Of a stretch of DNA of 34,860 nt, positions 10,713 through 24,902 are shown piece by piece (position 1 is the first letter of the stretch; the number at the start of each line of letters is the position of its first letter). The stretch comes from Burkholderiales bacterium RIFCSPHIGHO2_12_FULL_69_20 (GTDB lineage: Bacteria > Pseudomonadota > Gammaproteobacteria > Burkholderiales > Burkholderiaceae_C). The notes under the pieces were generated by a model. That model did no database searches and had not been told where the DNA came from. It was given only the letters and a program-made list of their open reading frames with translations. Both the position numbers and the translations under genes were made by a program. Location: contig MESD01000102.1 in NCBI GenBank assembly GCA_001770815.1, forward strand, positions 598 to 35,457, given 5' to 3'.

Positions 10713-12533
10713 ATGCAAGCGCTGCGCCTCCACGAGGTACTGGCGCGCGTGGTGGCCTGGCACAACCGCCATCCGCTCGCGCGACGGATCAACGCCACGC
10801 AGGTGCACAGCATCGGCGAGGTGCTGCTGCCGTTCGCCAGTGCTCAAGCGCTGCCCTCTGGCGAGCCAGCGGCCCAAGCCGGCACCGACATCCCACCGGC
10901 GCTGCCCGCCTGGCGGCCCAGGGCGGCGCCCGCATCCGCCCCCGGACTTGCACCCGCACCTGCCGGCGATCCGGGCGAGACGGTCCAGCCCGCAGCGGCA
11001 CCTGAATCGAGCCCGGCCATCGATCCGCCACCGGAGCCCCCGGTGGTCAACCCCGGCGACGAAGACGACGGTGTCGAACTCGAGATCGACATCGATCTGC
11101 ATGCCACCGACAGCGCTGCGGTGGCGCCGGACAGCAGCGCCGCCGACGAGGACACCGCCGCAGCGGCCGACGCCGCGCCGTTCGACCCCGATGCGGCCGA
11201 CCCAGCGCCGGCACAGGGTGTCGACCGACCCGACGGGCAGGACGACGCGGCGCCAGCCACCCCGACCGTGGAAACGTCAGCCACCGATCTCGTCGACGAC
11301 CGGGCCTACGGGCCGATGGCCGCAACCGAGGCTGGGCCGGCGCAGGCGCCTGACCACGATGCCGACCCGGCGCCACGGCCCTCTTCGGGCTTGCATCGCG
11401 CCGAGGCCACCGCGGGCCCGGCCCCTGCGCCCCGCCCGACCGGGCTGCGGCGCCTGCTGCTCGCGTTGCGCACGGCGATCACCGGCCGCCAACCCGGCAT
11501 GCCGCGGCTGCGGGCGGCCTTCAGCCGTGACTTCATCTGGCCGCTGACCCCAAAGCAGGTGGCCCGCTGGGCCCAGCGCCACGGTCAGGCTCAACCCCTG
11601 GCGCCGGCCGATTGGCCGCGCCGCCGGGTCGACACCGACGGCCAACGCCTGTCGCAGGCGCGGCAGAAGGGGCTGGCGCACACGGTGCAGCTGCATGTGC
11701 TCACCGCCGCCATCGGCGTGGGCGACCGCCGCATCCGGGTGCTGATGGACGCACAGGGCGCGGTGATCGGGCCACGGGCCTACAGCCGGGCGCGGATCGG
11801 CGCCGCCACCTCGCTGCTGATGGCTGGCGTGCTGGGGGTAGGTTGGGGGCTTTGGTGGCCCACGCCAGCAGCGGACGCCGACGCGCCAGCGCTGGCCGCG
11901 TTGGCGGCCTCGGCGCCGGCATCGGCCACTGCATCGGCACCCGCCCTCGGTGACGCGGCCTCGGCCCCCACGGCGGTGGCCGCCAGCGCGGTGGTCGAGG
12001 TGCCCGTGGCGGCGGTGGTGCTGGCGCCCGCCGCATCGACAGCCTTGGCAGCGCCCGCCTTGCCGGCGTCGGCCGCGGAAACACCACGGCCAGCGCAAGC
12101 ACCTGCGTCGGCCGCACACGCCGCCGAGATGCCCGCCAATGACCAGGCCCAGGCCGAGCCCGGCAGCGATTCGGCGCCACCGGTGGCCAGCATCCGGCCC
12201 GCGCTGTCACCCGAAGTTCGGCAGCAGGCGCGCCTGCAAGGTGAACAGTTGCGCGCCAGCCCGCCGGCGGTGGCATCGGCACCTGCGCCAGCGCCGGTGT
12301 ATGCCGTGGTGTCGCGCCCCACCGCCGAGCGCAGCAGCGCCGCCCGCAGCCTGGCCCTGATGCGCGCCAGCAGCATGCGCCTGCCGCCGCCCTTGCCCGA
12401 CCACGGCGAGCTGATGCGCAGCCAGGGTGAATGGCGCGCCGCCTGGTGGCCGTTTGCCAGCCTGGCCGATGCCGAGCGCGCCCGCGTGCTGCTGGCCGGC
12501 CGCGGGCTCAAGGCCGACGTGGTGGAGTTCTGA
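10713..12533 (+). CDS. Pro/Ala-rich single-pass membrane protein with SPOR-like C-terminal domain
   Basis: A 606-aa protein of no named family. The N-terminus (LRLHEVLARVVAWHNRHPLARRI) looks folded. A long Pro/Ala/Asp-rich low-complexity region, acidic around residues 105-170, runs to about 250. A basic segment with TPKQVARWAQRHG follows, then one hydrophobic helix near 364-384 (SLLMAGVLGVGWGLWW), a second Ala/Pro-rich spacer, and a C-terminal unit (about 560-606: WRAAWWPFASLADAERARVLLAGRGLKADVV) that resembles a SPOR repeat. Such an arrangement puts the C-terminal domain in the periplasm, where SPOR domains bind denuded peptidoglycan at the septum. A cell-division or cell-envelope role is therefore possible but unproven. 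High GC and strong codon-position bias support a real gene. Confidence 0.75.
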   Translation: MQALRLHEVLARVVAWHNRHPLARRINATQVHSIGEVLLPFASAQALPSGEPAAQAGTDIPPALPAWRPRAAPASAPGLAPAPAGDPGETVQPAAAPESSPAIDPPPEPPVVNPGDEDDGVELEIDIDLHATDSAAVAPDSSAADEDTAAAADAAPFDPDAADPAPAQGVDRPDGQDDAAPATPTVETSATDLVDDRAYGPMAATEAGPAQAPDHDADPAPRPSSGLHRAEATAGPAPAPRPTGLRRLLLALRTAITGRQPGMPRLRAAFSRDFIWPLTPKQVARWAQRHGQAQPLAPADWPRRRVDTDGQRLSQARQKGLAHTVQLHVLTAAIGVGDRRIRVLMDAQGAVIGPRAYSRARIGAATSLLMAGVLGVGWGLWWPTPAADADAPALAALAASAPASATASAPALGDAASAPTAVAASAVVEVPVAAVVLAPAASTALAAPALPASAAETPRPAQAPASAAHAAEMPANDQAQAEPGSDSAPPVASIRPALSPEVRQQARLQGEQLRASPPAVASAPAPAPVYAVVSRPTAERSSAARSLALMRASSMRLPPPLPDHGELMRSQGEWRAAWWPFASLADAERARVLLAGRGLKADVVEF

Positions 12534-12567
12534 CCGGCTGATTGCGGCGTTGGCCGCCGGGCGCAGT

Positions 12568-13482
12568 TCAGCGCCGCGCCAGCCCCAGCCACACCACCGT
12601 GGCCACCACCAGCAGGCCGCCGCCCACCTGCATCGGTGCGATGGATTGACCCAGGATCGCCCAGGCCAGCACCAGCGCAAAGATCGGCTCCACGTTCATG
12701 ATGGCAGAGTTGCCCACCACGCCCAGGCGCGGCAGCACGGTGAACATGATGGTGAACGCGGTGCCGTAAAGAAAGGTCAGCGCCGCCAGTCCCCACCAGC
12801 CCGCGGGCGCGGTGGGCAGGTGCGGGCCGCCCTGCAGCGCCATCGCGGCGGCGGCCATCAGCCCCACCAGGGCCATCGTGGTGGCGGTGCGCAGACGGCC
12901 GTCGAGATCGGCCGCCTCGTGCTGGGTGAACACCAGCGCCAGGCCGAAGGTGGCGGCCGCGGCCAGCGCGAAGCCCACGCCCACGCCGATCTGCGCCCAC
13001 TGCCCCGCCGCACCCAGGCCCGAGGCGGCGCCCAGCACGTCCAGCGCCAGCGCCAGACCCAGCAGCATCACGGGCATCGCCCGCAGCACCCGCGGCTCGG
13101 GCCGGTGCTGGTAGACCAGGCGCGCCCACAGCGCCGTCCACAGCGGGTAGGTGTTGAAGGCCAGCAGCGCCAGCGCCACCGGCAGCCGTGCCACCGCCGA
13201 ATAAAGGCACAGGCTCTGCACGGCCACCAGCAGGCCGATGGCCGGCAGCGCGCGGCGATGGCGCGCCGACAGCCGCAGCGGCACGCGGTAGGCCAGCACC
13301 AGCAGCGTGACCACCGCGGCAGTGACGCCGCTGCGGAAGGTGACCGCGGTGACCACGTCCACGCCGTGGTTGAAGGCCAGGCGCGCCGCCACGTGGTTGG
13401 CGCCCATCATCAGCGCGATCAGCAGCAGCGTGGCAAAGGCCGTGCCGGTGAGCGCCGTGCTGGCGGCGCGGGGGGTCGACAT
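12568..13482 (-). CDS. EamA/DMT-family membrane transporter
   Basis: A 304-aa protein with about ten hydrophobic helices in two repeated halves, the EamA (RhaT/DMT) layout. Landmarks are the first helix TLLLIALMMGANHVAARLAF, LPVALALLAFNTYPLWTAL in the first repeat, and the repeat-two end NVEPIFALVLAWAILGQSIAPMQVGGGLLVV, which matches the family's E-P-V/I-x-A-x-L-x-A motif. It lies in the inner membrane and probably exports amino acids or metabolites; the substrate is unknown. The ATG at 13482 gives a normal N-terminus; the longer open frame upstream is the shadow of the enoyl-CoA hydratase gene. It begins 23 bases after that gene's stop, so the two may be co-transcribed. Confidence 0.88.
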   Translation of the reverse strand: MSTPRAASTALTGTAFATLLLIALMMGANHVAARLAFNHGVDVVTAVTFRSGVTAAVVTLLVLAYRVPLRLSARHRRALPAIGLLVAVQSLCLYSAVARLPVALALLAFNTYPLWTALWARLVYQHRPEPRVLRAMPVMLLGLALALDVLGAASGLGAAGQWAQIGVGVGFALAAAATFGLALVFTQHEAADLDGRLRTATTMALVGLMAAAAMALQGGPHLPTAPAGWWGLAALTFLYGTAFTIMFTVLPRLGVVGNSAIMNVEPIFALVLAWAILGQSIAPMQVGGGLLVVATVVWLGLARR

Positions 13483-14414: not shown

Positions 14415-14448
14415 AAAAAAGCCCCGCAAATCCTGGAGATGCGAGGCT
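14415..14448 (-). terminator. Displaced tRNA-Val terminator left of attL
   Basis: Read on the minus strand, GCCTCGCA pairs with TGCGGGGC around a short loop and is followed by TTTTTT. It lies 7 bases outside the degenerate tRNA 3' end at 14456. It is best explained as the original terminator of tRNA-Val, carried away from the gene by insertion of the 10.4-kb element. Confidence 0.7.
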
Positions 14449-14455
14449 TCTTGAC

Positions 14456-14472
14456 TGGTGGCGGTGCAGGGT
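14456..14472 (-). repeat. Left attachment site: copy of the tRNA-Val 3' end
   Basis: TGGTGGCGGTGCAGGGT matches the last 18 bases of tRNA-Val at 24828-24845 except for one missing G in the acceptor stem. It marks the left end of the integrated element (attL). The match is short and slightly degenerate, as expected when the displaced fragment is no longer under selection. Confidence 0.7.
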
Positions 14473-14510
14473 CACGATTCACCTGTGGAACAACACTCTC
14501 GACACGACGT

Positions 14511-14531
14511 GTTGCCCCCAAAGTTGCCCCC
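14511..14531. repeat. Integrase arm-type repeats at left end
   Basis: Two direct copies of GTTGCCCCC lie at 14511-14519 and 14523-14531, 12 bases apart, about 40 bases inside attL. The same motif recurs in both orientations near attR. This is the arrangement expected for arm-binding sites of a tyrosine integrase. Confidence 0.5.
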
Positions 14532-14537
14532 AGCGTT

Positions 14538-14876
14538 TCAAGCACCCCACGGGGGTACTCTTTGGCGGGTCGGGTACAGCGTGGCTTCTTCGCCTTGATG
14601 TGAATAGAGGACGGCGCGCCGAGCGTGGCCCGAAGCCCGCGGGGCCGCATCAGCGCCGGCCGCCGGCTCGATCAGCGCCAGGTCTGCCGCCATGTCCACC
14701 AGGCGCCAGGCCGTCGAGTGGCTGCAGCTGAAGTGCCGACGAACCATCCCGCTCGCCTGGCGGCGCAGCGTGCCGCCGCGCAGCAATGCCACCGCAAACT
14801 GCAGGCGCCGGGCGCGTTCCAGCGAGGCAGGTGCAACGGTGTACACGGCTTCCAGGGTGGTCATGGATTCGGTCAT
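14538..14876 (-). CDS. Small helix-turn-helix protein of the element
   Basis: A 112-aa protein when started at 14876, where GAGG lies 8 bases upstream; a longer start at 14996 would overlap the previous gene's end without a ribosome site. The middle (LERARRLQFAVALLRGG, then VRRHFSCSHSTAWRLVDMAADL) reads as a helix-turn-helix like those of small phage and ICE proteins in which a CSHSTAWR-type recognition helix is conserved. The Arg- and Pro-rich tail looks disordered. It is the last gene before attL and lies on the same strand as the rest of the element. A regulatory or DNA-binding role is likely; the target is unknown. Confidence 0.65.
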   Translation of the reverse strand: MTESMTTLEAVYTVAPASLERARRLQFAVALLRGGTLRRQASGMVRRHFSCSHSTAWRLVDMAADLALIEPAAGADAAPRASGHARRAVLYSHQGEEATLYPTRQRVPPWGA

Positions 14877-14964
14877 GAGGGCCTCGCTGCTTGGATGCTG
14901 AGCGGCGCCGCGCCGCGGAAGATGGCTCGGAAGGCCTGGCGCTCGAACGCGGCCCGCTTCAGTG

Positions 14965-15294
14965 TCAGCATGCCGCCCCCCCGCCTTCAGGATCAATCCC
15001 GCGGTCGCCGCCTGCAGTCGACCTGCGCTGCTCGATCACCGTCCGTAAGGCCAGGTCACCCACGCCGAGGCCGAGGCCTGCCGCCAGCAGTTCCGCATCA
15101 TGGGCGGCGTTGCCGGTGGCCACGCGCTGCAACACGCCGCGCAGGAATTCCGCCCGCTCATCCGCGGGTAGCTCGCTGAGCACCGCGTCGACCTCGGCCG
15201 CAAGCGTGGCCAGTTGGGCCGGCGTCAGGTTGTCGCCGGGGGCTGGTGTTGCGCGCACCAGGCCGGCGAGAAAGTCCTTCGAGCTGCTCATCAC
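14965..15294 (-). CDS. Hypothetical protein directly downstream of the tape-measure gene
   Basis: A 108-109-aa acidic, largely helical protein with no recognised domain (LTPAQLATLAAEVDAVLSELPADERAEFL, then VATGNAAHDAELLAAGLGLGVGDLALRTV). GTG (15294) and ATG (15291) starts are adjacent; either begins within a few bases of the tape-measure stop at 15296, so translation is coupled. In siphophages small proteins on either side of the tape-measure gene are often its chaperones or tail-assembly factors. That role is possible here by position only. Confidence 0.6.
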   Translation of the reverse strand: MMSSSKDFLAGLVRATPAPGDNLTPAQLATLAAEVDAVLSELPADERAEFLRGVLQRVATGNAAHDAELLAAGLGLGVGDLALRTVIEQRRSTAGGDRGIDPEGGGAAC

Positions 15295-15295
15295 T

Positions 15296-17269
15296 TCAGA
15301 TCCCCAGCAGCAGTTGCAGACCGTCTTTGTTCACGCGAACCTGGATGGCCCGCAACAACTCCCACATGATCGCTTCGAGGTGTGGTTTCAGCCCCGCACC
15401 GTCGATCTTGATCAGCGCGTCGCCGCGCTCCAGGGATTGAGTCCGGGCCTTGATCTCGTCGATCGTCGCCTTGGTCATCTCCTTTTGAAGCGTCAGGGCC
15501 TCATCGCGTCGCTTGTTTTCGAGGTAGATCTGGCTCTCGACCGCTCGCAGGGCCCCCCACCCGAGCGGCGAGTTGAACGCGTTGATCAGATCGCCGTACA
15601 GCGATCCAAGTAAGCTTCCGGTGCTGCTCACCGTGTTGTTGATCGATGCGAATGTGGCCTCGATGCGCTTGGTGTCTGCCTCCAACTGCGCGGTGTTCAG
15701 CGTGACCTTGGCCTCGATCAGCTTGATGCGCTCGTTGCTGGCCAGCTTCTCCAGTTCGAGCTTCATCTTCTCTGCCGCGGCAGTGGCCTTATCCGTCTCT
15801 TTGGCCTGGCGCTCCAGGGCATCTGAGGTCTTGGCAGATTCCTTGGTGGTGCGGATCATTCCGTCCCACACGCCGGACTGCTTCTGGCTCAGCGCCTCGA
15901 TGGCCACGCCGTACTTGTCCGAGCCGATGGTGCCGCGCTGGAAGGCATCCTCCAGCTGGAAGCGCAGATCCTCGATGGCCTTGCTGCCCTTGATCTTGTC
16001 GAGCGTGACCAGAAAGCCAGAGAGAAACTGATCACCCGTCGTCGCCGGGTTCTTGGCCAAGTCGGCGAAGGCACTCTTCACGGCCTCGATCGGATCGATG
16101 AAGGTCTTCGGGTCGATGCCAAGCTCTTTCAGCGCCTTGTCGACGGCCTTGGTGGCATTCTCCAGATCCTTGCCCGTCAGGATGACCTTCTCGAACCCGG
16201 TGACGATCTTCGCGCCCGCGGCCTCGCCAGCTTCCCCCACCTCGATGGATTTCTGCTTGGTCTTGAAAAGCGCGTCTGAGGCGCCCTGCGTCGACTTGGC
16301 CGCGTCCGCCATGGCCTTGTCAAACCTCTGACCGAAGCCGGCCCAGTCGCCGGACTGGATTGAATAGGCGACGTTGAACGCGGTGCTGCCAAGCAGGGTC
16401 AGCGAGGCGACGATCCCGGTGATCGATGCCGTTGCGAGCTGTACACCCTTCGTCAGGTAGTCGAAGACGCCGGAATCTCCCACTTGGAGATAGGCCTCGC
16501 TGAGCGCGTTCTTGAAGCGGTTCGACGATGCGATGAAGCCATCGAAGTCGACGCCATTCAGCGCGGTGTTCAACTGCTGCGAGAACTTCAGGATTGCATC
16601 GCCACCGATCTGTCCCGCGGTGATCTGCTTGTAGAGCTCGTCGGTCGTGACGCCAAGCGACTTGGCGAACTCGCCGAAGAAGCCCGGGATGCGGTCGGCG
16701 ATCGACTTCAGGTCCTCCAGCTCGAATCGGTTCTTGCCGACGCCCTGCGACAGCTGCACCAGCGCGCCGGACACGTCGTTTGCCGAAGCCCCAAGCCTCG
16801 ACATGGTGCCGGCGATGGCCTCGAAAATGGTTTTCGCCTCATTGCTGTCGATCGTCGTTCCCTTGGCGGACGCCTGGAACTTGGCGTAGGCATCGGCCGT
16901 GCTCAGAAGCTCCAAGCCGAATTTGTTTGCCACGCCCTTGATGTAATCGAACTCGGAGGCGGCCTTCTGGGTGCTGCCGGTGGTGGCCTCCATCGACCGA
17001 CTGAAACGCTCGACCTCGACGTTTGCGTCAATGAATTCCTTCACCACCGCGGCGATCGCCAGGCCCTGAATCGTCCGGGCCAGGCTATCGGCGCTGACGC
17101 TCACTTTCTCCATCCCTGCGGCGCTGTCCTCGATGCGTTGCAGGCCGGTGGCCGCGCCTCGGGACTCGCTGTCGATGCCCTTCATCGACGCCTCGATCTT
17201 GCCGATGGCGGCGGATGCTCGATCCTCGCTCTCAAAAACGATCGATACGGTCTTGCTGATGTCTGCCAT
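15296..17269 (-). CDS. Phage tail tape-measure protein
   Basis: A 657-aa protein with the phage tape-measure N-terminal domain. The region from about residue 70 to 250 (FSRSMEATTGSTQKAASEFDYIKGVANKFG, then DVSGALVQLSQGVGKNRFELEDLKSIADRIPGFF) is its hallmark. A hydrophobic stretch near 280-300 (ASITGIVASLTLLGSTAF) fits the membrane-inserting segment, and long helical/coiled-coil segments run from about 350 to 620. The tail end (GAGLKPHLEAIMWELLRAIQVRVNKDG) looks like a natural C-terminus, so the gene is not obviously broken. Tape-measure proteins set tail length and help DNA entry. GC is lower than in neighbours (33 of 60 bases in the line starting 15601). No other tail, head or packaging gene accompanies it, which is odd. 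Confidence 0.88.
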   Translation of the reverse strand: MADISKTVSIVFESEDRASAAIGKIEASMKGIDSESRGAATGLQRIEDSAAGMEKVSVSADSLARTIQGLAIAAVVKEFIDANVEVERFSRSMEATTGSTQKAASEFDYIKGVANKFGLELLSTADAYAKFQASAKGTTIDSNEAKTIFEAIAGTMSRLGASANDVSGALVQLSQGVGKNRFELEDLKSIADRIPGFFGEFAKSLGVTTDELYKQITAGQIGGDAILKFSQQLNTALNGVDFDGFIASSNRFKNALSEAYLQVGDSGVFDYLTKGVQLATASITGIVASLTLLGSTAFNVAYSIQSGDWAGFGQRFDKAMADAAKSTQGASDALFKTKQKSIEVGEAGEAAGAKIVTGFEKVILTGKDLENATKAVDKALKELGIDPKTFIDPIEAVKSAFADLAKNPATTGDQFLSGFLVTLDKIKGSKAIEDLRFQLEDAFQRGTIGSDKYGVAIEALSQKQSGVWDGMIRTTKESAKTSDALERQAKETDKATAAAEKMKLELEKLASNERIKLIEAKVTLNTAQLEADTKRIEATFASINNTVSSTGSLLGSLYGDLINAFNSPLGWGALRAVESQIYLENKRRDEALTLQKEMTKATIDEIKARTQSLERGDALIKIDGAGLKPHLEAIMWELLRAIQVRVNKDGLQLLLGI

Positions 17270-17424
17270 GGTGGGGCCCCGTTGTCGGTTCGGTTTCAGT
17301 GCCTGGCGGTGTGGTCTCGGAGCGTGTTGGGCCGGGGGTGAGGTGTGGCCTCTTTCCCCTGCCTATGAGTCCCCTCAAGACGCGCGTGGCCGCAGAATGC
17401 AAGGCCAGGTCTAGGAGGCACAAG

Positions 17425-17895
17425 ATGTCGTTGATCGCATGCAAGGAGTGCGGGGCCAAGATCAGCACCAAGGCGCCGGCGTGCCCGAGCTGCGGCGCGA
17501 AGCGGCCCCGCGAGACATCGCGCGCCGCCAAGCTGGCCGCGCTGCTGCTCGCCGTCTTCGGTGCGCTGCTGATCTACACCAAGGCCACCGAGCCGCCCGC
17601 CACGCCTCAGCAGATCGCCGCCAAGGCATCCGACGCGAAGCGCGGCGCCCTCGCCTATGACCTGGCCGCCACGATCAAGGCCCGGGTGCGCGACCCTGAC
17701 TCGCTGAAGGTCACATGGATCGGCGTCAACAGCAGCGCCACGACCGCGTGCGCCAGCTACCGCGCGCGAAACGGATTCGGCGGGATGAACAGCGAGCGCG
17801 CCGTGATCGTCGACCGCAAGCCGCTGGAGCCGACCGAGGGGAACTGGAACACCTACTGCCCGGGCCTGCGCGACTACACCAGCGCCGCGCCGTAG
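17425..17895 (+). CDS. Zinc-ribbon single-pass membrane protein
   Basis: A 156-aa protein starting at 17425, where AGGAGG lies 6 bases upstream. The N-terminus is a zinc ribbon: Cys-x2-Cys in CKECG and CPSCG (residues 6-26). One hydrophobic helix follows (AAKLAALLLAVFGALLIY, about 34-52), then a soluble domain with DPDSLKVTW and a VIVDRKPLEP stretch, likely outside the membrane. Similar zinc-ribbon membrane proteins are found as accessory (moron-like) genes in phages and islands. It is the only plus-strand gene of the element, placed between the tape-measure and SSB genes, so it has its own expression. The function is unknown; superinfection or stress roles are guesses. Confidence 0.8.
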   Translation: MSLIACKECGAKISTKAPACPSCGAKRPRETSRAAKLAALLLAVFGALLIYTKATEPPATPQQIAAKASDAKRGALAYDLAATIKARVRDPDSLKVTWIGVNSSATTACASYRARNGFGGMNSERAVIVDRKPLEPTEGNWNTYCPGLRDYTSAAP

Positions 17896-18062
17896 CAGCA
17901 CACCCGACCACCGGAAGCTGCCGCGCGATGCGGCCGGCATAACCGGGCCCGCCACCGGCGCAGCCCGCAGGCGCCAGGTCGTCGGCGCGGCTGATTTGTC
18001 ATTACTCGCGCTCATGACCGGAACGCCCGGGCGCCGGCGCAGTAGGTCGCGCACATGAGCAG

Positions 18063-18473
18063 TCACCGACCGCCCCCGGCTGGCCAGTCGTCACCCGCCA
18101 CGCCAGGGCCTTCAGCATCGAGCGGCGGCGCGGGCGGCGCGTGATCGCCTGCAGCTGCCACGGCCTGGCGCTTGCGCTTGAGCTGGTAGGCCGTCATCAC
18201 GATGTCGGCCGTGATGCTCAGGCCGGCCCTGGGCGCGCCATCCTTGCCGGTCCATGTGCTGACCTTGGCCCGGCCGTTGATGGCCAGGGCGTCCCCCTTG
18301 GTCAGCGCGCCGATCTGCTCTGCAGCACTGCCGAAGGCGATCACGCTCACCAGCGAGTCGGCCTCGCCGTCGTGCGCGATGACCTTGGCCAGCACGAACG
18401 GTTTGCCGCCTGTGCCGGCGCGGCGCTCGGGGTTGGCAATCAGCTTGCCGGTGACGAGTGCGGTGATGCTCAT
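18063..18473 (-). CDS. ssb: Single-stranded DNA-binding (OB-fold) protein
   Basis: A 136-aa OB-fold protein opening MSITALVTGKLIANPERR, the pattern of phage and plasmid SSBs, with VSVIAFGSAAEQIGALTKGDALAINGRAKVSTWTGKDG forming the barrel core. A Pro/Ala-rich tail follows. The tip reads GDDWPAGGGR, not the DDDIPF-type end of cellular SSB, so partner recruitment may differ. The start is 27 bases after the helicase stop with AGGA upstream. With the initiator and DnaB-family helicase it completes a replication cassette of the element. Confidence 0.82.
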   Translation of the reverse strand: MSITALVTGKLIANPERRAGTGGKPFVLAKVIAHDGEADSLVSVIAFGSAAEQIGALTKGDALAINGRAKVSTWTGKDGAPRAGLSITADIVMTAYQLKRKRQAVAAAGDHAPPAPPLDAEGPGVAGDDWPAGGGR

Positions 18474-18500
18474 GGCGTCCGGTCCTGGGGTGGGGCTGGG

Positions 18501-19838
18501 TCAGCTGTTGGCGTCGTTGCCGCGGCGGCGCGCGACGCTGCTTCGCGAAGGCGCCCATCGCTGGGTCTTGCCGTCGAAGGCCAGCGCAATCCGCCCGCGC
18601 CGGCCGCCGCGGTTCTTGGCCACCTTGGCCAGCACCAGCAGATCGCCGTCTTCTTCCGTGCCCATCGGGTGCAGCAGGATCACGACATCGGCGTCCTCCT
18701 CGATCGATCCGGACTCCTTGAGGTGGTCGAGTTCGGGCTCGCCGCCGGCGTCGCGCTTGAGCTGGCTCAGCAGCAGCACGCAGACCCCAAGCTCTTTGGC
18801 CAGCGCCTTGATGCCGCGGCTGATCTGCTCGATCTGGTGGTGCCGCTTGTCCTGCGTGCTGCCGCTGCTGCACAGCTGCAGGTAGTCGACGATCAGCAGC
18901 GACAAGCCGTAGCGGCGCTGTAAGTCGCGAGCCTTGGCGCGGATGTCCAGCAGCGTCAGCGCCGGCTGGTCATCGACGTAGAACGGCAGCGCGCGGAGGT
19001 GGTCCACCGTCTCGGTGATCTGCGTCCAGTCATCGGGAGCCAGGCTTCCGGTGGTCAGGTGGTCCAGAAGCACGCCGCCACGGCTGGACATCGCACGGTC
19101 GGCCAGCTCGGCGCCGCCCATCTCCTGGGAGAGCATCAGCGCCGTGTCGCCGCCGGCCGCGATGTGCATGCCGATGGCCTGGGCGAGCGACGTCTTGCCG
19201 ACGCTGGGCCGCGCCGCCAGCACGATCACCTTGCCGGGCTTGATGCCGCCGCCGAGCGCTTCGTCGAGTGGCGCAAGGCCTGTCGCCTTGCCCGGCACGG
19301 TGTCGCCGGCGGCCAGCGCTTGCCAGTGGTCCACCTGCGAGGCGAGCAGCTCGCCAAGCCTGCAGGGCTCGCCCTTGGCCTTGGTGCGCTTCAGGCCGGC
19401 CAGAGCCGTCTGCATCTGGTCGAGGGCCTGGTCGGCAGACTCGGCCGCGTCGACGATGTCAGGCGAGCGCTCCACCGTGGCCAGGATGCGGCGCCGCAGC
19501 GCCTTGTCGGCGACGATCTCCGCATACCGCCAGATGTTCGCCGCACTGGCCACGCCCTGCGCCAGGTCGTTCAGGTAGGGCAGGCCCCCGACGTCATCGG
19601 CCGCGCCGGCGTCGCTCAGGGTCTGGAAAACCGTGAGGATGTCCGCGGGCTTGTTCGCCGCGATGTGCTGGGCGATGGCGTCGAAGATCTGGCAGTGCGC
19701 GGCGTTCCAGAAGCTGCGGGCATCGATCAGGCCGGCGACCTGAGCAAAGGCCTCGTTGTCGAGCATGAGGCCGCCCAGCACGCTCTGCTCAGCCTCGCAA
19801 CTCCACGGCAGCCGGTCGTGACTGCTCGGGCCGCTCAT
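18501..19838 (-). CDS. DnaB-family replicative helicase of the element
   Basis: A 445-aa hexameric 5'-3' helicase. The N-terminal DnaB domain opens with PWSCEAEQSVLGGLMLDNEAF. The RecA-like domain has Walker A ARPSVGKTS (about 209-217, Lys215) and Walker B LLIVDYLQL (about 314-322), with the DnaB block GGEPELDHLKESGSIEEDADVV near the end. The ATG at 19838 overlaps the initiator stop as ATGA, with GAGGGGG 9 bases upstream, so the pair is translationally coupled. The in-frame upstream extension is the shadow of the initiator gene. The chromosomal DnaB is expected elsewhere; this copy presumably serves autonomous replication of the excised element. Confidence 0.93.
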   Translation of the reverse strand: MSGPSSHDRLPWSCEAEQSVLGGLMLDNEAFAQVAGLIDARSFWNAAHCQIFDAIAQHIAANKPADILTVFQTLSDAGAADDVGGLPYLNDLAQGVASAANIWRYAEIVADKALRRRILATVERSPDIVDAAESADQALDQMQTALAGLKRTKAKGEPCRLGELLASQVDHWQALAAGDTVPGKATGLAPLDEALGGGIKPGKVIVLAARPSVGKTSLAQAIGMHIAAGGDTALMLSQEMGGAELADRAMSSRGGVLLDHLTTGSLAPDDWTQITETVDHLRALPFYVDDQPALTLLDIRAKARDLQRRYGLSLLIVDYLQLCSSGSTQDKRHHQIEQISRGIKALAKELGVCVLLLSQLKRDAGGEPELDHLKESGSIEEDADVVILLHPMGTEEDGDLLVLAKVAKNRGGRRGRIALAFDGKTQRWAPSRSSVARRRGNDANS

Positions 19839-20578
19839 CGTCGCGCCCCCTCGAAAACTTCGTCGGCGTGCAGCGGGTTGCGGCCACTCGCCTTCCGCAG
19901 GCCCGCCCAGTCGGCGCTGACGGCACCCATGAAGCCCGCATCCCAATCGCTGTAGACGTAGCCCTTTGCTACCGCCTTGAGCTTGAAGGCCTCCAGGTGC
20001 TCGGGCAGGTTGCCGAAGCCCTTCCTATCCGCCCACCGTTGAACGGATTCGCTGATCTGGAAGTCGGGCGGAAGTTGGACCTTCGAAGCCGATCGAGAAA
20101 GAGGCGCGCGCACTCTCTCTGGTGGTTCATGGTGGTTCACTGATGGTTCGTCTGAAGTGGGCTTCAGGGGTTTCGAGCTACCGGCTTCAGGGGTCCGAGC
20201 TACCGGCTTCAGGGTGACAGGCGCTTCAGGGGTGAAGCCGGCTTCAGGGGTGGGGGGTGAAGTGGGCTTCAGGGGTTTCGGTGGCTTTGCGGTGGCCGAT
20301 CGCTTCGCACCTTCGAATCCTGGGAGCGCAATCCGGTAGCGGTTGGTCCCCCTCGGGCCTTCGTTCAACCGGATCTCGAGTTCGCCGCTCTCGCGCAAGG
20401 TTGCGAGCAGGTGGTTCGCGTTTCGGCTGGACATCCGGCACTTCTCGGCGAGAGTGCTGACCGCCGGGTACGCGTTGCCGTCGTCGTCGGCAAAGTCGGC
20501 GATGGCCAGCATCAGCAGCAGCTCGGTTCCGCCGTGCTTGGAGTGGGCCCAGACCCGGGCCATGGTTCTGACGCTCAA
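19835..20578 (-). CDS. O-like phage replication initiator with winged helix
   Basis: A 247-aa protein. The N-terminus (SVRTMARVWAHSKHGGTELLLMLAIADFADDDGNAYPAVSTLAEKCRMSSRNANHLLATLRESGEL) is the winged-helix domain of phage replication initiators and helicase-loader partners. A Pro/Lys-rich linker of repeated KPLKPTS and PEAG units follows (about 105-165), then a C-terminal domain with QLPPDFQISESVQRWADRKGF and AFKLKAVAKGYVYSDWDAGF, typical of DnaB-loading partners. The TTG at 20578 is taken as start because a strong AGGGAGG (20584-20590) lies 5 bases upstream; the ATG at 20563 lacks one. Its 3' end overlaps the helicase gene. The linker codons hold six iteron-like repeats, as in the lambda O gene. 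Confidence 0.87.
   Translation of the reverse strand: MSVRTMARVWAHSKHGGTELLLMLAIADFADDDGNAYPAVSTLAEKCRMSSRNANHLLATLRESGELEIRLNEGPRGTNRYRIALPGFEGAKRSATAKPPKPLKPTSPPTPEAGFTPEAPVTLKPVARTPEAGSSKPLKPTSDEPSVNHHEPPERVRAPLSRSASKVQLPPDFQISESVQRWADRKGFGNLPEHLEAFKLKAVAKGYVYSDWDAGFMGAVSADWAGLRKASGRNPLHADEVFEGARR
20153..20280. repeat. Six iteron-like repeats inside the initiator gene; candidate replication origin
   Basis: GCTTCAGGGGT occurs at 20161, 20184, 20223, 20241 and 20266, with a one-base-shorter copy at 20206. Spacing is 17-25 bases. A 23-bp stretch at 20153-20175 is repeated exactly at 20258-20280, and a 14-bp palindrome TGAAGCCGGCTTCA sits at 20233-20246. Lambdoid phages carry their origin as iterons within gene O, and the initiator protein binds them. 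The alternative is that the repeats only reflect a repetitive Pro/Lys linker. Confidence 0.6.
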
Positions 20579-20624
20579 GCAGGCCTCCCTTTGATGACCG
20601 CGCGAAGCGTGCCGCATGGTGCGT

Positions 20625-20786
20625 TCATCGCGCCGCCCGCCATGCAGCGCGCCGCCGCACCACCGTGCTGTAGTGGCGCCGCCAGCGCGTGCACGCCAGG
20701 CAGCGCAGCTGCCCTGAGGTGCCGCAGCGGCAGGCTTCGAACAGGAGCGGGTGCACCCGGGCCGGGTCTGGTTTGGTGGTGGTCAT
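20625..20786 (-). CDS. Small Cys-rich (zinc-finger-like) protein
   Basis: A 53-aa basic protein with Cys20-x-Cys22 and Cys29-x2-Cys32 (CRCGTSGQLRCLAC), a probable small zinc-binding knuckle, and an Arg-rich C-terminus (RWRRHYSTVVRRRAAWRAAR). Its ATG overlaps the stop of the upstream gene as ATGA at 20783-20786, a strong sign of coupled translation. It ends 46 bases before the initiator start. Its size and position suggest a DNA-binding accessory or regulatory factor of the replication module. No family is recognised with certainty. Confidence 0.6.
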   Translation of the reverse strand: MTTTKPDPARVHPLLFEACRCGTSGQLRCLACTRWRRHYSTVVRRRAAWRAAR

Positions 20787-21214
20787 TCCCGAGCCCCCAC
20801 TCGATCGGCGAAGGCCTCCGCCGCGGCCAGGCCGGCCAGCTCGCGCTGCATGTTCCAGCGCGCGGCGGTGTAGTTCGGAGCGCCGGCGCCGGTTTCGTTG
20901 CGGGTGAGTGCCCAGCCGGCCAGCGCCAGCCGCGCGCGCAGCGTGGCGAATCGCTTCGCGTCGGCGCCTGGTGCGCCGGCTTGTTCGCTGGCGTCTGCTG
21001 CCGCAGAATCGGGGCTGTCCGCTCTCCCTTGATCCCTGAACCCACCAGCGCCTGCCAGGGCCTCGGTGGGTTCGTCCTTTCTGGGTGGGCTCAGGCCAGC
21101 AGGCGCAGCGCAACCGGCGCCCAGCGGTGCCAGCTCAGCAGGAATGACGCGGGCACGCTCAGGCGCGGCCAGGCCCGCCCGGCGGGCGCTTTTGTAGTGG
21201 TGGTGGGGGTCCAT
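20783..21214 (-). CDS. Hypothetical protein with conserved C-terminal helix block
   Basis: A 143-aa protein. The first 85 residues are low-complexity (Ala/Pro/Gly/Asp-rich). The C-terminal part (RFATLRARLALAGWALTRNETGAGAPNYTAARWNMQRELAGLAAAEAFADRVG) matches the pattern of a small conserved unit found in phage and ICE proteins of proteobacteria, usually RFATLRA...LAG...L...Y...RWG/N...L..L...FA..VG. The function of that unit is unknown to me. The start is 4 bases after the preceding gene's stop (TGATGCGATG), so it belongs to the early operon; the following zinc-finger-like gene overlaps it by 4 bases. Confidence 0.65.
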   Translation of the reverse strand: MDPHHHYKSARRAGLAAPERARVIPAELAPLGAGCAAPAGLSPPRKDEPTEALAGAGGFRDQGRADSPDSAAADASEQAGAPGADAKRFATLRARLALAGWALTRNETGAGAPNYTAARWNMQRELAGLAAAEAFADRVGARE

Positions 21215-21218
21215 CGCA

Positions 21219-21623
21219 TCACCCAGCCGTCGCGGTTACGGCCACCGCGGCGGCGCGGTTCGCGCGGGCCTTGTGGCTGGCCTTCGTGGCCTGCGCTTTC
21301 ATGCGCTCGGCAATCAGTGCACTGTTCGCGGACTGCTCGGCACGTGCGATCCAGAAGGCCCGCACGTCAGCCAGGCGCCAGCGAGTGCAACGCGGCTCGC
21401 GGACCACAGGGGCAGGCGCGCGGCCGGCCCTCACTTCGTCATGCCACCAGCTCACGCCCATCCCGCCCGCGGCTGCGCAGTCGGTGGCGTCGATCAAGGC
21501 CACGTCGGCCAGCGCCTCGGGTGTCGGAGGCCGCAGCTTCTGGCGGGTCGTCTTGGGCGCCGCCATCGGCGCGCTGGTGGTGCTTTGGATCTGGTGTTGC
21601 GGTGCGGTCACTGTTGGCCCCAT
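21219..21623 (-). CDS. AlpA/excisionase-like DNA-binding protein
   Basis: A 134-aa protein when started at 21623; an ATG at 21566 (MAAPKTTRQK) is an equally possible start, and neither has a clear Shine-Dalgarno. The middle (DATDCAAAGGMGVSWWHDEVRAGRAPAPVVREPRCTRWRLADVRAFWIARAEQ) has the shape of an AlpA/MerR-like winged helix-turn-helix: a recognition turn, then a wing with PVVREPRCTRWRLADV. Phage AlpA and excisionase proteins of this type control integrase or excision. The basic, Ala-rich tail looks helical or disordered. It is preceded by a hairpin-rich 95-base gap, which may hold its own control site. Confidence 0.65.
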   Translation of the reverse strand: MGPTVTAPQHQIQSTTSAPMAAPKTTRQKLRPPTPEALADVALIDATDCAAAGGMGVSWWHDEVRAGRAPAPVVREPRCTRWRLADVRAFWIARAEQSANSALIAERMKAQATKASHKARANRAAAVAVTATAG

Positions 21624-21664
21624 GCGCTGCGAATAGCAGCAGTGGCCCCAATGTCCGTGGCGCT

Positions 21665-21710
21665 CGTTGGGCCATTCAACCCTGGGCCGTTGGGCCAGTT
21701 CGGCCCAACG
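21665..21710. promoter_or_regulatory. Triple CGTTGGGCC repeat with perfect hairpin
   Basis: CGTTGGGCC occurs directly at 21665-21673 and 21688-21696 and inverted at 21702-21710. The last two form a perfect 9-bp stem with a 5-base loop. It lies just after the stop of the 214-aa gene and before the AlpA-like gene. It may be an intra-operon terminator/attenuator or a binding site for an element regulator. There is no T-run. Confidence 0.45.
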
Positions 21711-21718
21711 AGACCGAG

Positions 21719-22363
21719 CTAGCCTTTGGCATCCACGATGCGGCGGGTCGCGCGCAACCGCTTCCACGCCTTATCCATCACGTCGCGAGAGAAGCCAAGG
21801 GCGGCCCTCGTGGGCTGCTTCGCCGGCGACAGGGCGCCGAGCCGAGGCGGCCCGGGCAGGGCCAGGGGGTCGAATTCCAGCTCGCGCAGCTTGGCGAGAA
21901 TCGCCTCCTCTTGCGCCGTCTGACGCTGCACCGGCCGCCGCGGTGGCACCGCGTCCGAGGCCTTGGTGGTGCCAGTGTCAGCCGGACGCTCCGGCGGACA
22001 CCTCAGCTCGAGCGGTAGATCGAGCGCCAGCGCGCCGAGCAGCCGGCGAGCCTGACCGATGGGCACTGCCCGCTGGAATGTCCCGCCCGTGGCAATGCAC
22101 AGCGCCTTCAGGGTCAAACCGATCACGGGTCCGAGGTAGATCTCCGGCATGGCGTTGGTCAGTTCGCCGCTTTCGGCCATCGTTGGCCTACGGCTTGTGC
22201 CGTGTACCTCGCGCCAGCGCGTCGAGAGTTCGGCCTGCACACCGAGAGCGACCTGCTCAGGATCGGCGTCGTGCGCGAGACACGCCAGCTCGTACAGGTT
22301 GAGCGTGTCGCGCTGCGCGTACAGCTTTAGCGTATCGGCGGATACCCGCTCGTTCTGGTCCAT
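21719..22363 (-). CDS. Hypothetical element protein, 214 aa
   Basis: I recognise no family. The first 110 residues look folded (LKLYAQRDTLNLYELACLAHDADPEQV, and EIYLGPVIGLTLKALCIATGGTF). A Pro/Arg-rich linker follows, then a basic C-terminal helix region ending FSRDVMDKAWKRLRATRRIVDAKG. The ATG at 22363 has GGGGGA about 7 bases upstream. It sits in the run of small genes between the integrase/regulator and the replication module, where phages and islands keep early or accessory functions. Confidence 0.62.
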   Translation of the reverse strand: MDQNERVSADTLKLYAQRDTLNLYELACLAHDADPEQVALGVQAELSTRWREVHGTSRRPTMAESGELTNAMPEIYLGPVIGLTLKALCIATGGTFQRAVPIGQARRLLGALALDLPLELRCPPERPADTGTTKASDAVPPRRPVQRQTAQEEAILAKLRELEFDPLALPGPPRLGALSPAKQPTRAALGFSRDVMDKAWKRLRATRRIVDAKG

Positions 22364-22456
22364 CGCATCCCCCGATGCTCCCCATGGTGAAAGGTGCCGC
22401 GCCGGCCGGGTGGGGGCCCGGTGTTCCCTCCGTCGAGGTAGGCGCGGCGGAACTCG

Positions 22457-22846
22457 TCAGCCCTGGGCGATGCCGTCGCGGAGCACGGCCAGGTGCGCCC
22501 GCGACAGGAGGACCATGTGCAACGCCGCCGACACGGACCCGGTGATTCGTTCGTCGGTGTCCTCGTCGCACTCGACCAGGTGCAGCACCGCCGCCGCCTG
22601 CCTCAGCGCCGCATCGGCCGATTCGTAGGCGTCGTCGACTGTCACGTCAGCGCGAATCAACAGCGAGGCCAAGCCCACCCGGTAATTCTTTTCGGGCGGG
22701 TGCATGCCTGCGCCGCGCAGCATGTCGGCCACCTCTTGAGGCGCCATCAGCGCCAGCGGGCGGATATCGAGGGTTTTGACGCTCGACTCTGCCGAGCTCT
22801 GCGGCGCGGGCTTGGTCTCGACAGGCGATACATTCTCGGAAGCCAT
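22457..22846 (-). CDS. Hypothetical element protein, 129 aa
   Basis: An acidic helical protein with no recognised domain (QEVADMLRGAGMHPPEKNYRVGLASLLIRADVTVDDAYESADAALRQAAAVLHLVE). The ATG at 22846 has AGAGGAT 6 bases upstream, a good ribosome site, and codon-position GC bias is normal, so the gene is probably real. It lies between the Cro/CI-like regulator and the 214-aa gene on the same strand. No function is assigned. Confidence 0.62.
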   Translation of the reverse strand: MASENVSPVETKPAPQSSAESSVKTLDIRPLALMAPQEVADMLRGAGMHPPEKNYRVGLASLLIRADVTVDDAYESADAALRQAAAVLHLVECDEDTDERITGSVSAALHMVLLSRAHLAVLRDGIAQG

Positions 22847-22964
22847 GATTCGATCCTCTGTTGATCGGGTGGTGGTCAGGCCGGCCAGGTGCTCTTACAC
22901 CCGGCCGGCCGTCTACCGCAGGGCCGCTGCGGCGCCGGTTGCCGGATCCCGCCCGGCGCGGTCT

Positions 22965-23213
22965 TCAATCGATCGCCGCTGGCTTGCCGGGCGCGATGTA
23001 CTTCGCATGCAGCCGCGCCAGGTCCTGCATGGCCTCGAGGTAGGCCGGCACCCATGCCTGAATCGGCGTCTTGCCTGTCACCCACCGGCTGGGCGTGTCC
23101 TTCGCTACCCCGGTCTTGCGGCAGAAATCGGACTGCTTCCAGCCCAGCGCCGCCAGTGCCTGGGTGAACTCATCGGGGGTCATCGTTGGGCGGGGGTTGT
23201 CATCGGAGTGCAT
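22965..23213 (-). CDS. Small Cro/CI-type helix-turn-helix regulator
   Basis: An 82-aa protein from the ATG at 23213 (a later ATG at 23183 is possible; neither has a clear ribosome site). The core MTPDEFTQALAALGWKQSDFCRKTGVAKDTPSRWVTGKTPIQAWVPAYLEAMQDLARLH is a classic Cro/CI helix-turn-helix, with GVAKDTPSRWVTGKTPI as turn and recognition helix. It lies between the integrase and the early genes, where phage and island master regulators sit. The AT-rich region upstream (23214-23363) holds short palindromes that could be its operators. Confidence 0.75.
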   Translation of the reverse strand: MHSDDNPRPTMTPDEFTQALAALGWKQSDFCRKTGVAKDTPSRWVTGKTPIQAWVPAYLEAMQDLARLHAKYIAPGKPAAID

Positions 23214-23250
23214 GCCAGTTAGTCTAGCTGGTTTCGCGTAAAGCGTACAC

Positions 23251-23265
23251 ATAGAAGTTTTCTAT
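23251..23265. promoter_or_regulatory. Palindromic operator candidate upstream of the Cro/CI-like gene
   Basis: ATAGAAGTTTTCTAT has perfect 6-bp arms (ATAGAA/TTCTAT) around 3 bases, 38 bases before the regulator start. Nearby are TTGACA (23275-23280) and the loose inverted pair ATAACG/CGGTTAT (from 23279). The region from 23214 to 23363 is clearly richer in A+T than the genes around it. It is a likely control region for the regulator and perhaps the element's early operon. Confidence 0.45.
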
Positions 23266-23363
23266 CCGCATTAGTTGACATAACGCCCGTTGTAGACGGT
23301 TATTTCCTCGCGCATAGCTTCCTTCTATCGGGCCTGCTGCTGATGGTCTGCGCGCCGCCCCAA

Positions 23364-24650
23364 TCACGCCGCGTGCAACGGGATCACCTGGGCGCCGTCG
23401 CGCAGCCTGTCCAGGTAGTCGGCCCACGTCTGCATCATGGTGCGCCGCTGCGCCAGGTACTGCGCCCGGTCATAGGCAGCGCCCAGCGGCCCCGCCTTGC
23501 CGTGGGCCAACTGCGCCTCGATCCACTCGGGGTCAATGCCCGGCAGCCGCTCCGCGATGATGGTCCGGGCGGTCGCCCTGAAGCCGTGGGCGGTCATCTC
23601 GTCAGCCCCGAAGCCCATGCGACGCATCGCCGCGTTCATCGTCACGTTGCTGATCGGTCGGCCCTTGGTGCGCAGGTTGGGAAAGCAGTACGCCCCGACG
23701 CTGGTCAGCGGCTGCAGCTCGCGCAGCACCGCCACGGCCTGGGCAGCCAGCGGGACAACATGATCAGGCCCGCTGGCCTTTGCCTGCTTCGTGCGCTTCA
23801 TGTCCTGGGCCGGGATGGTCCACACCCCCGCGTCGAGGTCGACGTCAGCCCAGCGCATGGCCAGCACGTTGCCCGGGCGCTGGAATGTCAGCGCCGCCAG
23901 CGTCAGTGCCGCCCGGGTTACAGGGTGGCCACCGTAGCCGGCCACGGCGCGCAGCAACTCGCCCAGCTTGGCGGGGTCGTCGGTCGCCGCGTAGTGCTTG
24001 GTCAGGGGCACCGCCAGGGCGCCGCGCAGGTCAGGGACGGGGTCGCGATCGGCATGCCCGGTGGCAATGGCATAGCGGAACACCAGCCCGCAGGTTTGCT
24101 TGACCCGGTGGGCAGTGTCCAGGGCGCCGCGCGCCTCGACCTTGCGCAGCAGATCCAGCACCATCGGCGCCGTGACGCTGGCCACCGGCCGGGCGCCGAT
24201 CCACGGGAACACGTCGGCTTCAAGCTGGATGCGGCTTCGTTTCGCATAGCCGGCGCTCACCTTGGGCTCGTGCACCAGGCGCAGCCACTCACGAGCCACG
24301 TCCTCGAAGGTGCCCACCTGCGGCAGGCCCGCGGATGCGCGCGCCTGGGCATCCTGCAGGCGTTGCTTCCCGGCCTTGTCGGCCTTGCGCGTGTCGCTCG
24401 GGTCGGTGCCATTGGCCAGCTGGGCGCGGGCTTCGTCGCGGCGCCTGCGGGCGTCGGCCAGGCTGACGGCTGGGTACACCCCGAGCGATAGCCGCTTCTC
24501 CTTGCCTTGGATCCGGTACTTCAGGCGCCACCAGCGCGCGCCGTTGGGCTGCAGTTCCAGATACAGCCCGCCGCCGTCGCTCAGCTTGCGCGGCTTCTCG
24601 CCGGGCTTGGCCTTGCGGATGGCGGCATCGCTCATGGTGTCGGTGGGCAT
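23364..24650 (-). CDS. int: P4-type tyrosine integrase
   Basis: A 428-aa site-specific recombinase. An N-terminal arm-binding domain (DAAIRKAKPGEKPRKLSDGGGLYLEL) marks the P4/CP4-57 integrase class that uses tRNA genes. The core-binding domain follows, then the catalytic domain with Arg of FQRPGNVLAMRW (near 257), HGFRATART (His and Arg, near 354), LAHG (His) and the tyrosine block AYDRAQYL (near 392). All catalytic positions are kept, so it is probably active. The start at 24650 is chosen for its family-typical opening and GAGG about 8 bases upstream; an in-frame extension to 24731 would run into the att region. It lies next to tRNA-Val and is transcribed away from it, the usual layout for this class. 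Confidence 0.95.
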   Translation of the reverse strand: MPTDTMSDAAIRKAKPGEKPRKLSDGGGLYLELQPNGARWWRLKYRIQGKEKRLSLGVYPAVSLADARRRRDEARAQLANGTDPSDTRKADKAGKQRLQDAQARASAGLPQVGTFEDVAREWLRLVHEPKVSAGYAKRSRIQLEADVFPWIGARPVASVTAPMVLDLLRKVEARGALDTAHRVKQTCGLVFRYAIATGHADRDPVPDLRGALAVPLTKHYAATDDPAKLGELLRAVAGYGGHPVTRAALTLAALTFQRPGNVLAMRWADVDLDAGVWTIPAQDMKRTKQAKASGPDHVVPLAAQAVAVLRELQPLTSVGAYCFPNLRTKGRPISNVTMNAAMRRMGFGADEMTAHGFRATARTIIAERLPGIDPEWIEAQLAHGKAGPLGAAYDRAQYLAQRRTMMQTWADYLDRLRDGAQVIPLHAA

Positions 24651-24661
24651 GGGGGCACCTC

Positions 24662-24724
24662 GTTGGGGGCAGGTTCCGAGGGGTTTCCCCCTGCTGCCCC
24701 CAATGTTGCCCCTTTGTGGGGGCA
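24662..24724. repeat. Integrase arm-type repeats at right end
   Basis: GTTGGGGGCAG (from 24662), CTGCTGCCCCC (from 24691), GTTGCCCC (from 24705) and GTGGGGGCAG are near copies, in both orientations, of the GTTGCCCCC motif found at the left end (14511-14531). They lie between the integrase start and attR and overlap the integrase promoter region, as arm sites of P4-type integrases do, so the integrase may repress its own gene. Confidence 0.5.
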
Positions 24725-24760
24725 GATTCAAGCGGCCCTATGCGGTCACACTCGCGCATG

Positions 24761-24796
24761 AAAAAAGCCCTAGAGCGTTGATTCTCTAAGGCTTTT
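24761..24796 (-). terminator. Element-borne terminator now serving tRNA-Val
   Basis: On the minus strand AAAAGCCTTAGAG pairs with CTCTAGGGCTTTTTT around an 8-base loop, ending in a T-run. It lies 31 bases past the tRNA 3' end, inside the element, so the element appears to supply a new terminator for the tRNA gene it split. Confidence 0.8.
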
Positions 24797-24827
24797 CGTC
24801 TCATGCGGCCCCTTGTGGAGCCTCGTC

Positions 24828-24902
24828 TGGTGGGCGGTGCAGGGTTCGAACCTGCGACCCCTGCCGTGTGAAGGCAGTGCTCTACCGCTGAGCTAACCGC
24901 CC
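24828..24902 (-). tRNA. tRNA-Val (anticodon CAC); its 3' end is attR of the element
   Basis: The minus strand gives a full cloverleaf of 75 bases. The acceptor stem is GGGCGGT/ACCGCCC, the D arm GCTC...GAGC, the anticodon stem CTGCC/GGCAG with loop TTCACAC (anticodon CAC), the T arm GCAGG TTCGAAC CCTGC, then discriminator A and an encoded CCA. It reads valine codon GUG. The 3' end (24828-24845) is repeated at 14456-14472, so the functional tRNA now has a 3' end brought by the element. It is regenerated intact on integration. Confidence 0.95.

Follow-up and report, generated by a model that had tools for sequence, protein, structure and literature searches.

A tRNA-Val element with its own replication genes and a lone siphophage-type tape-measure gene: a candidate phage satellite from a Burkholderiales genome

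What is an integrated element that carries an integrase, a set of replication genes and a complete tape-measure protein (TMP), and in which no terminase, portal, capsid, tail-tube or lysis gene is recognised? Such a locus occupies positions 14456 to 24845 of a 34,860-nt stretch of Burkholderiales bacterium RIFCSPHIGHO2_12_FULL_69_20 (GCA_001770815.1, MESD01000102.1:598-35,457, forward strand), the whole of which we call the window. Judging from sequence comparison, we take the locus to be, rather probably, an integrated phage satellite; its helpers are probably siphophages, and the best reading, by analogy, is that the satellite TMP would replace that of the helper. Clean ends at a tRNA gene, a replication backbone shared with other elements, a full-length co-linear TMP, the recurrence of the design and the six places that such TMPs occupy in a tree all support this reading. 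An earlier note on the window alone had already suggested a satellite, and comparison with recurrent compact elements now lends that suggestion support that stops short of proof.

The TMP matches PF20155 (TMP_3) with 105 bits against a cut-off of 41 (E 5e-30), TIGR02675 of NCBIfam above its cut-off, and phrog_2335 at E 4e-40. Its frame is open throughout, and it is co-linear with siphophage TMPs over residues 1-657, with identities of 55% to L117, 46% to L034 (to residue 655) and 36% to MW202621; the comparison with siphophages that the earlier note had proposed thus yields homology from end to end. The last 180 residues are conserved, at 66% identity between the window and L117 and 47% between the window and L226, an element described below, as against 50% and 28%, respectively, outside them. 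In the siphophages MW202621 and L117, unlike in the window, the TMP gene lies within an ordinary tail module comprising tail tube, chaperone and following tail genes. The 72 listed features (of 80) of the MW202621 record name no integrase, which suggests that MW202621 is a virulent phage.

How often, then, does a TMP of this family stand alone? Relatives were taken from viral-contig scans, as the best 80 of 142 with alignment A1 and the best 80 of 207 with alignment A2. The usual next tail gene (D117) lies beside the TMP in 94 of the 100 loci that have at least 400 bases past it and, when identical C-terminal domains (C-domains) are merged, in 71 of 76 testable ones, with six more set aside. 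The five C-domains without D117 are those of L151, L194 (the same place as L226), L204, L179/L221 and L222. Four of these five belong to compact elements (L226, L204, L179 and L151), giving 4/76 with the window not counted; L222 has tail-tube and chaperone genes, though not the usual next gene, and was excluded as a compact element. L188, with 337 bases remaining past its TMP, was left out of the next-gene test, and L150, which carries a capsid-protease gene on a contig that ends shortly after the TMP, is in the tree and outside the 4/76 count. As controls we used the best 80 of 269 tail-tube relatives and all 60 relatives of D117, partly on the same contigs as the TMP set, so that the controls bear on the closer relatives. 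A chaperone or TMP follows the tail tube in 77/77 loci with downstream room (3/80 had none), and a TMP precedes D117 in 59/59 loci with upstream room (60 fetched). Stranding is thus seen for 4 of 76 TMP C-domains, for 0 of 77 tail tubes and for 0 of 59 post-TMP genes. Only 34/68 loci had a capsid protein detected upstream of the tail tube, a low count that is probably due to narrow capsid queries. The window is not the single deleted case that the earlier note had named as the outcome telling against a satellite, since L226, L204, L179 and L151 all have a TMP of this family while lacking the greater part of the tail module.

In a tree of 84 C-domains, with seven labelled rows standing for six elements (one twice) and L188 and L222 unlabelled, the TMPs of the window, L226, L204, L179, L151 and L150 occupy six places. 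Six label changes are needed and well-supported branches force six, the bootstrap being not fully settled. L179 and L188 apart, the elements thus did not inherit their TMP from one ancestral element; the tree, resting on sequence, is compatible with capture or with phage reduction for each element alike and does not say which. Over 920 codons the TMPs of L179 and L188 share 71% identity, with nonsynonymous (pN) and synonymous (pS) values of 0.19 and 0.70, so the protein has been kept under constraint in this pair, with the caveat that dS is near saturation.

The elements that share the TMP family differ in how they move. L226 (G828:C2:80001-100000; 3827-12916), from a genome of the same class as the window genome and of a different family, measures 9,076 bp between 14-bp attachment (att) repeats at a tRNA-Ser gene and encodes an integrase, a primase/helicase-type ATPase, a late-activator family protein (phrog_836) and an 875-aa TMP. 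Its genome, G828, gave no match to the family tail-tube model in a search in which G823, the L117 contig and MW202621 were positive. L204 (IMGVR_UViG_3300048930_000735) is Mu-like, with MuA- and MuB-type transposition genes (phrog_310 and phrog_296), a phrog_286 protein that we take to be GemA-like and a 739-aa TMP. L179 combines an integrase, an initiator, DnaB and a 938-aa TMP. L188 is sister to L179 in the tree and encodes, besides the TMP, a weakly matched helicase and proteins of neck and terminator type; in both, a similar small gene follows the TMP. The records of L204, L179, L150 and L188 gave no match to the tail tube. L151 (IMGVR_UViG_3300031455_000071) is the closest relative in design to the window element: its integrase and DnaB are 57% and 56% identical to those of the window, AlpA, p143, p54, TMP and p113 are homologous too, and the order is similar. 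It differs in its length of 15.7 kb and in having a tail chaperone, the small and large terminase subunits (TerS and TerL) and an acylphosphatase, the genes after DnaB running chaperone, TMP, small gene, TerS, TerL and p113. A single chaperone gene, short of about 50 bases, is split between the two ends of the L151 contig, which makes a circle of about 15.8 kb likely; IMG/VR gives no end repeats for it, and from its sequence we take L151 to be probably circular.

Some smaller observations attach to these elements. The length of L204, about 9.5 kb, depends on ends set by eye, where near-inverted end sequences were seen; its edge genes look cellular by eye, the left fragment having no Pfam match and the right-edge gene being presumably MraZ-like. 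L204 and L151 share the same small gene behind the TMP, and an SSB-like label first given to it by eye was dropped, PHROGs and Pfam being empty for the L151 copy. In L151 and L191 no capsid, portal or tail tube was recognised, and an acylphosphatase is present. In L188, neck-like and tail-terminator-like genes lie between the helicase-like gene and the TMP (1536-2602), a partial tail set. L150 (IMGVR_UViG_3300032024_000228) carries an integrase-like gene (by eye), a helicase, a fused protease-capsid gene, two small genes and a 922-aa TMP, and is possibly a capsid-forming satellite with a TMP of its own.

Where does the window element begin and end? Its limits are given by the following features.

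14456..24845: whole element, 10,373 bp from core to core, delimited by the direct repeat of the tRNA 3' end and by reading of the flanks
24828..24902, minus strand: tRNA-Val(cac), the target gene, restored by the element (ARAGORN)
24833..24845, minus strand: right att core, within the tRNA, 13-bp exact repeat
14460..14472, minus strand: left att core, in the displaced tRNA 3' fragment, 13-bp exact repeat
about 14415-14452: probable original tRNA terminator, beyond the left att core, from flank reading and comparison with genome G011
24760..24802, minus strand: element-borne terminator-like hairpin behind the restored tRNA, near-identical in L090 and L091

The att core, ACCCTGCACCGCC in the sense of the tRNA, is present at both ends as an exact 13-bp copy, the left one belonging to a displaced tRNA-Val 3' end that is shorter by one base. 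Beyond this left copy, a hairpin followed through by a T run is similar to the terminator that comes immediately after tRNA-Val in G011, a related genome, and the hairpin behind the restored tRNA-Val differs from this displaced original. The clear ends claimed earlier are thereby borne out. The suggested search for an empty site found no fully homologous one, the two flanks lying about 27 kb apart on a single contig in G011, and it is therefore the tRNA repeat and the displaced terminator that define the ends. The genus also contains two sibling elements, L090 and L091, which have an integrase about 76% identical to that of the window, the same tRNA-Val and a near-identical hairpin; both are truncated by contig ends. 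Among eight related or comparison loci tried besides the window, plausible att repeats of 14-16 bp occur at L226, L089 and L086, and none in L105, L107, L104 and L087; a 12-bp repeat at L085 falls inside a gene and looks like chance.

Between these ends lie the following genes, in the order in which they are read from the tRNA.

23364..24650, minus strand: P4-type tyrosine integrase, 428 aa from ATG, frame open from 24731
22965..23213, minus strand: small helix-turn-helix regulator, weak matches (best Pfam E 0.01, best PHROG E 2e-5)
22457..22846, minus strand: 129-aa protein, no match
21719..22363, minus strand: 214-aa backbone protein, homologues near integrases in L050 and L051, no PHROG match
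21219..21767, minus strand: AlpA-like excisionase/regulator, phrog_66 at E 2.4e-6
20783..21214, minus strand: 143-aa backbone protein (p143), homologues in related elements, no PHROG match
20625..20786, minus strand: 53-aa backbone protein overlapping the preceding gene, homologues in L087, L088 and L151, no PHROG match
19835..20617, minus strand: O-like replication initiator, phrog_391 at E 1e-17
18501..19838, minus strand: DnaB-type replicative helicase, 445 aa, PF03796 at E 8e-64, TIGR00665 below its cut-off
18063..18473, minus strand: single-strand DNA-binding protein (SSB), PF00436 at E 2e-7
17425..17895, plus strand: zinc-ribbon protein, PF13248 at E 3e-5, below cut-off
15296..17269, minus strand: TMP, complete, 657 aa, assigned by Pfam, NCBIfam, PHROG and end-to-end relatives
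14965..15294, minus strand: 109-aa protein, no relative found, best PHROG E 0.099
14538..14876, minus strand: p113, last gene, 112 aa from its own ATG, small helical protein of a terminase-neighbour family

Ten window proteins were scanned against Pfam, PHROG and NCBIfam, p113 against Pfam and PHROG, and three more against PHROG. The integrase exceeds the Pfam cut-offs of PF22022, PF13356 and PF00589 and matches phrog_1 at E 6e-64; it, the O-like initiator, DnaB, SSB and the complete TMP are all confirmed as the earlier note had named them, and the AlpA-like protein likewise finds its family. The Cro/CI-like regulator of that note stands as a small helix-turn-helix gene, its more specific label resting on weak matches. 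The true start of the AlpA-like gene is probably internal to the frame listed, and homologues occur in L050, L086, L087, L104 and L151. As had been noticed, the genes lie mostly on one strand with intact frames: the zinc-ribbon gene alone is on the plus strand, and the frames read are open. Terminase, portal, capsid, tail tube, chaperone and lysis families have no match among the window proteins scanned, and siphophage queries for chaperone, tail tube, TerS, TerL, capsid and post-TMP proteins, run with tblastn, hit nothing in the window except p113, in keeping with the virion genes that the earlier note had listed as absent. The protein p113 was detected in this way through its phage homologue p69. 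Both in siphophages and in L151 the family of p113 has the large terminase as its neighbour; the window element may therefore derive, by reduction, from an ancestor with more genes. The predicted structure has a confident helical core, helix-turn-helix-like; fold comparison gave as best match DNA-binding domains at E 1.0, none confident, and p113 was given no name. Small proteins of p113 type with a helix-turn-helix-like core (for instance L126 13119-13328) form the final gene in two elements.

The replication backbone is shared piecewise between the window and elements beside tRNA or tmRNA genes of related genomes. A DNA search of the genus matched some part of the element in 21/21 genomes, by position mostly the flanks, integrase and DnaB, and backbone-related elements there adjoin tRNA-Arg, tRNA-Met, tRNA-Ser and tmRNA, with tRNA-His in two other genera. 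The cargo of these relatives varies: L085 (472-5564) holds TerS and two large unassigned proteins, L105 (7477-12748) an internal-virion-type transglycosylase, and L089 (13252-16757), whose SSB is 72-80% identical to that of the window, a phrog_427 protein, so that in L085, L105 and L089 the backbone appears to sample isolated phage genes. In L086 and L104 no virion cargo was recognised by eye, and the two L086 proteins scanned are replication genes. Such cargo, TerS in L085 and the transglycosylase in L105 above all, would fit a TMP that is a mere passenger (moron) with no role in virions, on an element that travels by conjugation or general transduction. We hold this to be highly improbable, since no conjugation genes were recognised in the general family scans of window proteins, one tail gene family recurs, and the TMP is under constraint in L179/L188.

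Several observations weigh against a satellite with a TMP of its own, and need to be considered together. First of all, the TMP is rare near home: in a protein search of 200 family genomes only distant TMPs, at most 30% identical, occur outside the window genome, and the TMP stretch has no match elsewhere in the 21 genus genomes among the matches listed. Second, no complete second copy of the exact TMP-bearing element was found, and the backbone relatives in the genus hold other virion genes or none recognised; the search for the gene set in other genomes that had been advised thus returned compact elements of like design without a copy of the exact set. Third, the window has neither a tail chaperone, which the PLEs (phage-inducible chromosomal island-like elements) of Vibrio cholerae and L151 both have, nor a terminase small subunit, and p113 hints at a lost neighbouring terminase and hence at possible decay. 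Fourth, ordinary TMP modules occur together with integrases related to that of the window in L186 (43% identity) and L189 (33%), and L141, a full siphophage contig, has an initiator-like domain and a p113 homologue; a temperate ancestor from which such elements could shrink is thus conceivable. Finally, the TMP gene may outlast deletions simply by being large, but the tail-tube control argues that size is not the whole cause of its survival.

Wider searches place these counts. Scanning genome contigs with the single TMP protein gave no relative, and with alignment A1 one, on a Rubrivivax contig within an ordinary tail module; DNA searches of phage and plasmid records returned short pieces only, at most 4% of the query. 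In the A2 searches the TMP C-domain occurs in 1 of 399 order genomes and in 3 of 369 class genomes (overlapping sets), namely the window genome, G828 with its lone TMP and G823 with an ordinary module.

The points just listed lead to the alternative that the earlier note had raised, a defective prophage whose head and tail block was lost in at least two deletions, with the TMP and p113 left by chance. The order integrase, replication genes, gap, TMP, gap, p113, att does resemble a temperate siphophage minus two blocks, and p113 of the terminase-neighbour family, L151 with its tail assembly chaperone, TerS and TerL, and full siphophage contigs, of which L186 and L189 have a related integrase and L141 an initiator-like domain, all lend it force. 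The recurrence and the controls oppose it. The window frames read are open; deletions on either side would have had to halt at the borders of the TMP gene, leaving it whole; the same outcome is repeated in elements with different mobility modules, while tail-tube and post-TMP genes are never stranded in the loci tested; and, among the loci compared, no contig unites the whole integrase-AlpA-p143-DnaB set with a complete tail module. On balance we regard a decayed prophage as unlikely.

How would a satellite use a single tail protein? Under the satellite reading, infection by a siphophage would lead the element to excise and replicate itself. Its TMP would then compete with that of the helper, the C-terminal 180 residues docking on the helper tail-tip complex, and satellite particles would have tails built on the satellite ruler, diverting helper tail assembly. 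Head, tail tube and lysis would be supplied by the helper, and p113, given its family, may help packaging. The search for a helper prophage proposed in the earlier note came out empty: no tail-tube gene of the helper lineage occurs in the 21 genus genomes, with a model that was positive on controls, and a virulent helper is thus likelier than a resident prophage. The same protein could instead act as an anti-phage decoy that poisons the tail assembly or injection of incoming siphophages, the element not being packaged. Tail assembly and the TMP are reported as defence targets (PMC11364771; Rta in PMC12987554), and the conserved C-domain might bind tail-tip proteins; on the other hand, PADLOC gave zero matches for the six window proteins tested, a full 657-aa ruler is unnecessary for a decoy, and integrase and replication genes better suit a mobile element. 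We judge a decoy improbable as the whole explanation, and the decoy and satellite readings are mutually compatible.

The window element can be set beside known systems. In general terms it has the integration, regulation and replication genes of a satellite without virion-building genes, and compact elements of like design (L226, L204, L179, L151) sit at other sites. With the phage-inducible chromosomal islands (PICIs) it shares an AlpA-like regulator, and a terminase small subunit was not found by family scans or tblastn; the capsid, portal and connector genes of capsid-forming PICIs (cf-PICIs) were not found among the window proteins scanned. With P4-like satellites it shares a P4-type integrase at a tRNA gene. 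The capsid-size and decoration genes of P4 are sid, psu and delta, and families of these kinds were unmatched in the Pfam and PHROG scans. It departs from an intact prophage in having no recognised terminase, portal, capsid, tail-tube or lysis genes. The nearest published parallel in function is that of the PLEs, which by published description also encode their own TMP. PLE11 virions are reported to hold the satellite's TMP in place of the helper's, deletion of tmp in PLE11, PLE1 and PLE4 strongly cuts transduction, and the 2026 work describes PLEs as the first known case of satellites contributing components of their own to phage tails (PMC12987554); the mechanism proposed here is therefore not new in kind. 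As described there, PLEs pair the TMP with a tail chaperone (PLE11 also with a baseplate hub) and use a contractile-tailed helper (PMC12987554), whereas the window has a TMP of a siphophage family, a P4-type integrase and a Rep-DnaB module, and no chaperone by tblastn with a siphophage query. Putative tmp genes are also indicated in PLE-like elements and other putative satellites including some cf-PICIs (PMC12987554, Extended Data Fig. 10 legend), and putative TMPs in capsid-bearing E. coli satellites (PMC10448857). The latter, like the window, are often sited at tRNA genes and have a putative TMP with few other tail genes; as described, theirs also include a baseplate part, major capsid and decoration proteins and a RepA replicon (PMC10448857), and the window has no capsid gene. 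Passages of two further papers deal with other systems (PMC12324425, PMC10690885).

Relative to PLEs, what appears new here is a set of other backbones, siphophage-type TMPs, a TMP that is sometimes alone, and six separate origins. We found no report of a siphophage TMP alone on several backbones in the open-access literature searched, many subscription papers and preprints lying outside it. A TMP family is stranded in elements of differing mobility systems, in a siphophage rather than a contractile-tail setting, and it is an evenly poised proposal that the lone TMP is a recurrent satellite tool, elements with unrelated mobility systems, namely a P4-type integrase with Rep-DnaB, an integrase with a different helicase, and Mu-like transposition, having each captured a TMP of one siphophage family to commandeer siphophage tails. 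If so, chimeric tails would be a widespread convergent strategy beyond Vibrio, with some lineages needing no satellite chaperone. If the satellite reading is true, a single protein would suffice to redirect tail assembly, satellite particles could be told by their tail length, and the likely helper lineage could be read from the conserved C-domain of the TMP. A TMP without a tail-tube gene would then serve as a search rule for unseen satellites in genomes and viromes.

One further observation concerns the integration site: in L098 (G209:C2), from a related genome, the homologous place holds two tandem identical tRNA-Val genes.

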